This document shows positions 23,594 to 26,664 of a DNA stretch of 37,572 nt, in pieces. The notes beneath the pieces were generated by a model. It did no database searches. It saw only the letters and a program-made list of their open reading frames with translations, and was not told where the DNA came from. The position numbers and the translations under genes are program-made. Every line of letters starts with the position of its first letter. Positions within the stretch are counted from its first letter, which is position 1. The stretch comes from Hymenobacter sp. (GTDB taxonomy: Bacteria; Bacteroidota; Bacteroidia; Cytophagales; Hymenobacteraceae): contig JANXOE010000199.1 of the NCBI GenBank assembly GCA_025353745.1, positions 1 to 37,572 on the forward strand, in the 5' to 3' direction.

Positions 23594-25429
<1,836 letters not shown>

Positions 25430-25445
25430 GCTGCAGTTCTTCCAC

Positions 25446-25660
25446 ACTGGCCCCCAAACTGGCGCGAGTTTAGCGCAGCGCAACTCGTGCCGGCCATGAT
25501 GTGGAGGCTGTGCCTCCACTGCCGCAACGCGGCAAGCGGCCGTTGCACTCGTCCAACCGGAACCGTTCTATGCGAGGCGCAGCCTCGCCCGAAGCCGGGC
25601 ACGAGTTACGCTCCCTGCGGTCGCTAAACTCGCGCCAGCAGCGGGCCAGTTTGGGGGCCG
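25446..25660. repeat. Nested inverted-repeat intergenic element (REP/BIME-like)
   Basis: The gap between the ABC exporter and the DUF2911 gene (25430-25779) holds no convincing gene but is densely palindromic. Outer arms: 25449-25462 with 25646-25659 (14 bp, perfect). Next: CTGGCGCGAGTTTAGCG (25459-25475) with its perfect complement at 25622-25638 (17 bp). Next: AACTCGTGCC (25482-25491) with 25598-25607. Inside are three perfect short hairpins, GTGGAGGC/GCCTCCAC (25501-25519), TGCCGC/GCGGCA (25520-25534) and GCGAGGC/GCCTCGC (25572-25588). Each half can also fold alone through CGAGTT...AACTCG, as in paired REP sequences. The rest of the gap holds a terminator (25706-25748). Whether it is a mobile non-autonomous repeat, a structured RNA or both cannot be decided here. 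Confidence 0.8.
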
Positions 25661-25705
25661 GCAATGGGCTCATTATTTGGCCGGATGCAAATGTTTGGCT
25701 GTCCC

Positions 25706-25748
25706 AAAACTACAAAACCCGCGCCCCCAGCGCGGGTTTTGTAGTTTT
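25706..25748. terminator. Very strong terminator with 19-bp perfect stem
   Basis: Arms at 25706-25724 and 25730-25748 are perfectly complementary over 19 bp with a 5-base loop, GC-rich inside and A/T-rich outside. It ends 31 bases before the DUF2911 start codon, leaving little room for a promoter after it. Confidence 0.85.
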
Positions 25749-25779
25749 AGGGCCTCAACCCAACCCATTTTCCTTTTCG

Positions 25780-26664
25780 ATGAAGCACTCCCTGCTTACT
25801 TTCTCCGCCGCGGCTGCCACGGCCGCAACGCTGCTGGCCGCGCCCGCGGCTCAGGCTCAAATCAATACCCCGCAACCCAGCCCCAAAAGCACCGTGATGC
25901 AGCGCGTGGGCCTCACCGATGTAACCGTTGCGTACTCGCGGCCGGGCGTGAAAAACCGCGTCGTTTTTGGTACCCTGGTGCCTTACGGCAAGCGCTGGCG
26001 CACGGGCGCCAACGCCACCACGAGCATTAAATTCTCGGACGACGTGACCATTGAGGGGAAAAAGGTGCCGGCCGGTGAGTACGGCATCTACACCATCCCG
26101 AACGCCGCGGAGTGGACCGTGGTGCTCAACAAAAGCCTCAAGCAAGGCGCGGAAGTGGACGGCTTCAAGGACGACCAGGACGTGGCCCGCTTCACCATCA
26201 AGCCCTACAAGCTGCCGGCCAAGGTGGAAACCTTCACCATCGACTTCGCCGACCTGACCCCGGCCACCGCCAACGTGGAGCTGAGCTGGGCCCTGACGGG
26301 CGTGAAATTCAAAATCGCGGCCGACGTGGACAGCAAAATCGCGGCTCAGATCGACGAGAAAATCACCAAAGCTGCCGCGCCCGCGCCCGCCGATCTCGCC
26401 TCGGCCGCCGTGTATTACAACGATAGCAACAAGGACCTGAAGCAGGCCCTGGCCTGGATTCAGAAAGCCAACGTTGCCGAGCCCACCAAGTTCTGGAACC
26501 TGAACACGGAAGCCAAAATCCGCCTGAAAATGAAGGATTACAAAGGGGCCATCGCGGCCGCTGAGGCATCCAAAAAAGCTGCCCTGGCCGCCACCCCGCC
26601 CAACGGCGAGTACGTGAAAATGGACGAGCAGCTGATGGCCGAGGCCAAGAAAATGGGCAAATAG
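25780..26664 (+). CDS. Secreted DUF2911 protein
   Basis: This 294-residue protein has a signal peptide (MKHSLLTFSAAAATAATLLAAPAAQAQ) and a DUF2911 domain with the family pattern SPKSTVMQRVGLTDVTVAYSRPGVKNRVVFGTLVPYGKRWRTGANATTSIKFSDDVTIEGKKVPAGEYGIYTIPN (about 32-106). The C-terminal third (DLKQALAWIQKANVAEPTKFWNLNTEAKIRLKMKDYKGAIAAAEAS) looks like one or two TPR-type helical hairpins. DUF2911 proteins are common in Bacteroidota; their function is unknown. The reading frame is open far upstream through the repeat element, but the ATG at 25780 is the real start because the signal peptide begins there and the repeat and terminator are non-coding. Confidence 0.88.
   Translation: MKHSLLTFSAAAATAATLLAAPAAQAQINTPQPSPKSTVMQRVGLTDVTVAYSRPGVKNRVVFGTLVPYGKRWRTGANATTSIKFSDDVTIEGKKVPAGEYGIYTIPNAAEWTVVLNKSLKQGAEVDGFKDDQDVARFTIKPYKLPAKVETFTIDFADLTPATANVELSWALTGVKFKIAADVDSKIAAQIDEKITKAAAPAPADLASAAVYYNDSNKDLKQALAWIQKANVAEPTKFWNLNTEAKIRLKMKDYKGAIAAAEASKKAALAATPPNGEYVKMDEQLMAEAKKMGK

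Follow-up and report, generated by a model that had tools for sequence, protein, structure and literature searches.

The palindromic element between an ABC exporter gene and a DUF2911 gene of a Hymenobacter sp. is very probably one copy of a non-autonomous, REPIN-like Hymenobacter repeat family, here an orphan, which would have been spread in trans by a RAYT of the Bacteroidetes type. The family is built of two inverted REP-like terminal hairpins and three internal hairpins. All positions given below refer to the window, i.e. the whole analysed stretch of 37,572 nucleotides.

The region 25446-25660 was found in the spacer between the ABC exporter gene (23594-25429, Pfam ABC_membrane and ABC_tran) and the DUF2911 gene (25780-26664). 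The element starts 30 bp past the stop codon of the ABC gene, on the potentially transcribed strand. Its core, 25459-25638, is a nested palindrome. It is closed by a perfect 17-bp arm pair (25459-25475/25622-25638) and contains a near-perfect arm pair (25477-25491/25598-25612), hairpin arms at 25501-25508/25512-25519 and additional small hairpins at 25520-25534 and 25572-25588, which were read off the sequence. An outer 14-bp arm pair (25449-25462/25646-25659) is also perfect and lies within an 18-nt pair of 94% complementarity. The nested palindrome and its arm pairs had been described in the first-pass annotation, and all of them were present. In RNA folding the plus strand reached -126.7 kcal/mol (z -6.85) and the minus strand -136.7 kcal/mol (z -7.75), and none of 200 dinucleotide shuffles was equal in either case, so that the element folds far better than shuffled sequence. 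Each half can also be folded by itself via CGAGTT..AACTCG, as had been proposed, and on paper both foldings are possible. The features are listed below; "cells" are those of the alignment of 72 copies.

25459 to 25638, no strand assigned: repeat element proper, 180 bp, CTGGCGCGAGTTTAGC...GCTAAACTCGCGCCAG, from alignments of 10 own-genome copies with flanks and of 72 copies
25461 to 25491, no strand assigned: left terminal REP-like hairpin, GGCGCGAGTT..AACTCGTGCC; helix 1, 98.7% of cells paired, nearly invariant with little covariation
25501 to 25519, no strand assigned: internal hairpin B, GTGGAGGCTGTGCCTCCAC; helix 2, both-side changes in 4 of 8 pairs
25520 to 25534, no strand assigned: internal hairpin C, TGCCGCAACGCGGCA; helix 3, both-side changes in 2 of 6 pairs
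25572 to 25588, no strand assigned: internal hairpin A, GCGAGGCGCAGCCTCGC; helix 4, both-side changes in 4 of 7 pairs
25598 to 25636, no strand assigned: right-hand terminal hairpin, REP-like, GGCACGAGTT..AACTCGCGCC, in inverted orientation to its left counterpart; helix 5, 97.4% of cells paired
25446 to 25457, plus strand: left flank unit ACTGGCCCCCAA, immediately ahead of the ACTGG that belongs to the element itself; tandem match 25446-25463 and flank enrichment
25639 to 25650, minus strand: right flank unit ACTGGCCCGCTG in the minus-strand reading; sequence and flank enrichment
25651 to 25659, minus-strand reading: GGCCCCCAA, outward of the right unit ACTGGCCCGCTG

A separate strong inverted repeat with 22-nt arms (95% complementary) and a 5-nt loop was observed at 25703-25751, before the DUF2911 gene. 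It was not flagged by a simple terminator scan.

The first-pass annotation had asked for copies in the genome and in its relatives, and these were readily found. In the own genome (3.77 Mb in 336 contigs) BLAST returned 29 pieces, comprising approx. 10 near-complete copies (C316, C172, C98, C153, C106, C39, C245, C113, C105 and C242) and partial ones (C98, C53, C81 and C193). At the three sites that were read together with their neighbours (the window, C39 and C98) the element was intergenic. Matches were present in 28 of 58 other genomes, namely 27 of 36 from the same genus and, weakly, G050 from another genus. The exact 15-mer CTGGCGCGAGTTTAG from the element end occurred in 78 of 120 genus genomes, the own genome included, and was absent from 42. 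Its occurrences summed to 647, compared with a single match of the reversed control in all genus genomes. We concluded that a single-copy or chance palindrome can be rejected, since the element is multi-copy in genome and genus and its folding beats that of shuffles.

A scan of named genomes listed, among 80 loci of 116 stretches, Hymenobacter siberiensis, H. artigasi, H. frigidus, H. arizonensis and H. crusticola. Among these 80 loci all those with at least two matches belonged to Hymenobacter/Hymenobacteraceae. The same group made up 57 of the 80. A loose pattern for the hairpin unit matched 55 of these 57 and also 3 of the 23 other listed loci. Carriage by a plasmid or phage was rejected, as searches of a plasmid and a phage collection with the element gave no match in either.

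The ends of the element were sharply defined. The own-genome copies were alike from CTGGCGCGAGTTTAGC to GCTAAACTCGCGCCAG, corresponding to window positions 25459-25638, and dissimilar beyond; in the 10 own-genome copies with flanks as well as in the 72 copies the similarity stopped at both positions. The outer 14-bp arms are thus flanking sequence and are not common to the family. They are accounted for by ACTGGC units in the flanks: ACTGGCCCCCAA on the left and, on the minus strand of the right flank, GGCCCCCAA followed by ACTGGCCCGCTG and then the element end. When 144 flanks of 80 nt, a set that includes many orthologous copies from close genomes, were read towards the element, there were 29 occurrences of ACTGG and four of its complement CCAGT. 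Thirteen of the 29 started 10-11 nt out and five started 20-21 nt out. In the 18 own-genome flanks of 60 nt the corresponding counts were 11 and 0, where shuffles expect 1.2 and none of 2000 was as high. Genome-wide, 9 of the 12 matches to ACTGGC-N2-8-ACTGGC were located at element ends (7 distinct ends), and the reversed control of this pattern gave 8 matches. Phased 8-12-nt ACTGGC units outside the element ends were seen at several copies, including the window, L002, L003, L005 and L007.

Extra bases on the right side had earlier been interpreted as an insertion that occurred after the repeat was formed. These bases are one more ACTGGCC-type unit (25639-25650) of the kind seen at many ends of the family, and an insertion into a finished palindrome is therefore unnecessary. 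We replaced this interpretation by a differing number of flanking ACTGGC units on the two sides.

To follow the structure across the family, 79 full copies were extracted, of which 72 were kept after nested overlaps had been removed. The own copy C153, which has a degenerate right end, was excluded from these 72 and from the flank sets. The five local hairpins were paired in 97.3% of the cells, while slid controls gave 32-44%. Both-side changes were found in 11 pairs and amounted to 89 cells compared with 27.4 in shuffles that take no account of kinship among the copies (0 of 500 as high). The covariation signal stems from the internal hairpins. The terminal arms were almost invariant, partly by construction, because the extraction required conserved terminal arms. 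For the end-to-end palindrome 94.0% of the cells were paired, and both-side changes stayed at shuffle level (7 compared with 6.2; 225 of 500 as high). Further pair types (28 compared with 25.1; 4 of 500) and the covariation score (0.037 compared with 0.034; 16 of 500) were slightly raised. We therefore did not retain the end-to-end palindrome as a conserved structure, and this is to be read as weak support rather than disproof, as the terminal arms hardly vary. Of the competing alternative structures suggested earlier, both can be drawn, but clear covariation was detected for the local hairpins only.

A link to a transposase became visible at places in relatives with closely spaced copies. Four of 12 such places that were fetched enclose the same ORF of approx. 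182 aa, which scored 91.5 bits with NCBIfam NF047646 'REP-associated tyrosine transposase' (cut-off 80) and 30.2 with Pfam Y1_Tnp (PF01797, cut-off 23). No PDB chain matched the RAYT protein at E 0.001. Some match to this protein was present in 57 of 120 genus genomes. Complete RAYT genes at 72-100% identity were grouped as clade I, comprising 14 genes in 13 genomes with Hymenobacter crusticola (L300) as a named example. The element was located 17-51 bp upstream of all 14 genes and also downstream of nine (one of them a partial match), and at the other five BLAST found none. Of the clade-I genes that are incomplete, those of G010 and G036 (the latter truncated where its contig ends) had an adjoining element match, and those of G014 and G075 had none. 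In the oriented pairs the hairpin-A half mostly faces the RAYT gene, with L178 as an exception, and L072 and L171 carry B-type hairpins in both halves (all judged by eye). The median 15-mer count was 6 in the 13 clade-I genomes and 1 in the 107 others (p 5e-5, uncorrected for phylogeny). The association with this RAYT clade is solid. The idea of a REP pair served by a RAYT, put forward in the first-pass annotation, is thus well supported, as the repeat is multi-copy and, in one RAYT clade, adjoins all the complete members that were found. The search for a RAYT-like gene that it had called for succeeded in relatives only; by family or protein search none was detected in the draft genome to which the window belongs, in which a gap is possible, and the family looks orphaned there.

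It is improbable that another enzyme (of an insertion sequence or of some other RAYT clade) spreads the copies and that the clade-I gene merely sits between them. Several copy-rich genomes without a clade-I gene speak for such an enzyme: G029, G109, G064 and G135 have another RAYT, and in G000, G001, G005 and G074 none was detected. The 15-mer was counted 62 times in G135, 39 in G064, 31 in G109, 29 in G029, 24 in G001, 22 in G074, 22 in the own genome and 20 in G005; G134, with 73, has a clade-I fragment only. This alternative is opposed by the same upstream position of the element at each of the complete clade-I genes (14 genes, 13 genomes), and by the other RAYT clades, which lack the element and have repeats of their own. 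Thirty-six further RAYT-like loci at 25-58% identity, part of them outside the genus, were fetched, and of these only the one in G050 had two short weak matches. Different inverted repeats flank most of the other RAYTs checked. Such other clades with their own unrelated inverted repeats were seen in Hymenobacter and related genera at loci L181-L183, L188-L193, L079-L085 and others.

To characterise the clade-I enzymes we aligned the proteins of 13 of the 14 genes, leaving out the second G003 copy, which had the same score. The alignment extends over 182 columns without a stop. The HuH motif, the W and the Y were kept in 11 of 13 proteins; L174 reads NQAH, and in L179 both the tyrosine and the W are missing. 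The dN/dS ratio had a median of 0.06 and a maximum of 0.13 in the 46 of 78 pairs with computable dS, synonymous sites being near saturation. On these figures the clade-I enzymes look kept under purifying selection. Their motifs are NHAH, WQ, YLH[RQ]NP and SS, with 85 residues from HuH to Y and a length of 182. The reference for TnpAREP subclass 2.6 has NH[LIV]H, WQ, YIH[QN]NP and SS, a HuH-to-Y distance of approx. 82 and a length of approx. 179 in the available text of PMC6006769. By motif comparison, membership in subclass 2.6 (RAYT group 5) is probable; NHAH is unlike NH[LIV]H and the rest mostly fits.

For the way in which the family spread we infer the following sequence of steps. The hairpins would fold when their strand is single-stranded, e.g. 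on the lagging-strand template, and the RAYT of the Bacteroidetes type (TnpAREP, a Y1 HUH enzyme), presumably that of clade I, would recognise them. It may then cut the terminal hairpin at its foot, on or close to the conserved CT (A-CT-GGCGCGAG). By single-strand transposition, acting in trans, it would move or copy the unit into new positions, most of them between genes. The consensus foot is (A)CT-GGCGCGAG, in which, among 96 unit contexts, the C was conserved in 91 and the T in 86, and no GT[AG]G tetranucleotide was present at the 5' foot. For the E. coli TnpAREP, cleavage of single-stranded, folded REP next to the hairpin, at a CT, is described (PMC8266576, available text). Against the reading as a RAYT-spread family stand the negative RAYT search in the own draft genome, copy-rich genomes without a complete clade-I gene (up to 62 15-mers, in G135), the foot that is not GTAG, sites mostly shared between close genomes, a differing G029 site that looks like a loss, the failure to obtain an exact empty junction and the loss of catalytic residues in 2 of 13 clade-I proteins.

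Subclass 2.6, which equals group 5 of Bertels, is depicted in the available text of PMC6006769 as mostly from Bacteroidetes, without GT[AG]G repeats and with atypical flanking structures that are copied elsewhere in the genome. The Hymenobacter system resembles it in its Bacteroidetes host, in its enzyme of approx. 180 aa with WQ, Y..NP and SS and in its gene-flanking structures without GT[AG]G that have copies elsewhere. It differs in the NHAH motif and in that the structures are called weak there, whereas those of Hymenobacter are strong, composite and approx. 180 bp long. With the REPINs/BIMEs of Proteobacteria and their group 2/3 RAYTs (PMC8266576, as far as its available text goes) it shares two inverted hairpins, a variable linker, multiple copies, a RAYT flanked by copies and a CT at the foot; unlike them it has no GTAG foot, three extra covarying internal hairpins, another RAYT group and phased ACTGGC units outside the ends. 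In TIRtrons/TIRYTs, according to the available text of PMC3733652, RAYT-like genes are likewise flanked by long non-GTAG inverted repeats, which are dispersed in some species, but each flank in Hymenobacter is a complete multi-hairpin palindrome and not a single inverted-repeat arm. New relative to the REPIN kind are the five-hairpin body, the lack of a GTAG foot and the stuttered ends. The name Hymenobacter was absent from the main text of PMC6006769 and PMC3733652. A literature search, outside of which most subscription journals lie, yielded no paper on Hymenobacter with 'REP-associated tyrosine transposase' or 'REP sequences', and none of those on Hymenobacter with 'palindromic' was about such repeats, as judged by title.

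So far REP cutting has been studied with proteobacterial GTAG-reading enzymes, and the group 5/subclass 2.6 RAYTs of Bacteroidetes have been noted only for their atypical flanking structures, as far as the available text of PMC8266576 and PMC6006769 goes for the former and that of PMC6006769 for the latter. The family described here provides a cognate repeat that is well defined and ends sharply, a covarying structure of five hairpins and a candidate non-GTAG foot. Together with the apparently selected enzymes and the named host H. crusticola it makes a test system for DNA choice by such RAYTs, in which the phased ACTGGC units beyond the element ends could also find an explanation. A speculative and rather doubtful extension is that the RAYTs of this clade mobilise the five-hairpin composite with the non-GTAG foot ACT|GG as their unit, and that an ACTGGC unit of 8-12 nt is added or left behind outside the end whenever a transposition or an abortive strand transfer takes place at a CT. 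If this were true, the stuttered ends would be a countable record of transposase activity per locus.

We regard it as quite improbable that the element is a conserved structured RNA or a 3'-UTR element of the ABC exporter transcript with a regulatory role in mRNA stability or termination. The position 30 bp past the ABC stop codon on the potentially transcribed strand, the very stable fold and the covarying hairpins would suit such a role, but hairpins of single-stranded DNA covary alike, and the copies occur at unrelated loci. A known structured RNA family was rejected, as the Rfam search gave 18 matches up to E 5 and none at the gathering score. Moreover, no full copy was present within approx. 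1.5 kb downstream of the orthologous ABC gene in 23 relatives. In G020 and G005 short matches followed approx. 810 bp on, with a degenerate hairpin-like unit approx. 80 bp past the stop (by eye). In G012 (L225) approx. 1.5 kb separate the ABC exporter-side and DUF2911-side matches, compared with less than 0.3 kb in the window (25429-25780), so that DNA was lost or gained there.

In line with the reading as a RAYT-spread repeat family, the element was absent from syntenic sites in some relatives. The genes flanking C39 are conserved in G012, G074 and G022, and those flanking C98 in G012 and G074, and in each of these the element was absent as read from the alignments. Between G000 and G012 both flanks were syntenic and the element absent at three sites, with one flank only at five more; the spacers at these empty sites were too diverged for the junction, and no exact empty junction was obtained. 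Joined-flank searches were done with G020 in G005, with G000 in 12 genomes and with G029 in G109 and G064. Seven of nine sites were occupied in both G020 and G005; one G020 copy lies in a block that was duplicated together with a gene next to it. Where G020 has its RAYT locus, G005 (L221, approx. 337-372) has kept the flank on the left and a solitary degenerate terminal hairpin, with neither RAYT nor right flank. G029 and G109 shared 11 of 12 sites. At the twelfth the flank matches are 63 bp apart in G109 compared with 260 bp in G029; the more distant G064 appears to carry the element there, which makes loss likelier than gain. No transposition event was seen in these close-genome and syntenic comparisons. 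As sites are mostly shared between close genomes, we concluded that movement is slow or old.

Positions that are mostly stable between close genomes would also be expected of a host-maintained chromosomal site rather than a mobile passenger, bound by gyrase, IHF or another nucleoid protein as described for classical REPs in the available text of PMC6006769. We hold this to be highly improbable as the main explanation, since syntenic loci carry different sets of the element in different species, the 15-mer is missing from 42 of 120 genus genomes and the link with a single RAYT clade would go unaccounted for. As a secondary role it is conceivable. Terminal inverted repeats and multiple copies would likewise be expected of a miniature element belonging to a DDE transposase or to a true IS200/IS605 insertion sequence, but this is scarcely credible, as the linked enzyme passed the cut-off for REP-associated transposases and reached only 22.6 bits (25.5 in a second score) with the IS200-type model NF033573 (cut-off 55), and no target-site duplication was evident by eye in the 10 own-genome copies.

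Three minor observations concern the repeats themselves. In the own genome a half copy directly adjoins a full copy in the same orientation (L003/L010, C98), forming a BIME-like cluster. L029 (C193), also in the own genome, represents a shorter, divergent subfamily whose terminal hairpins are of the GAGGC type. In the spacer equivalent to that of C98, G012 (L215) and G074 (L216) each seem to have a different inverted repeat in the place of the element, as judged by eye in the alignment.
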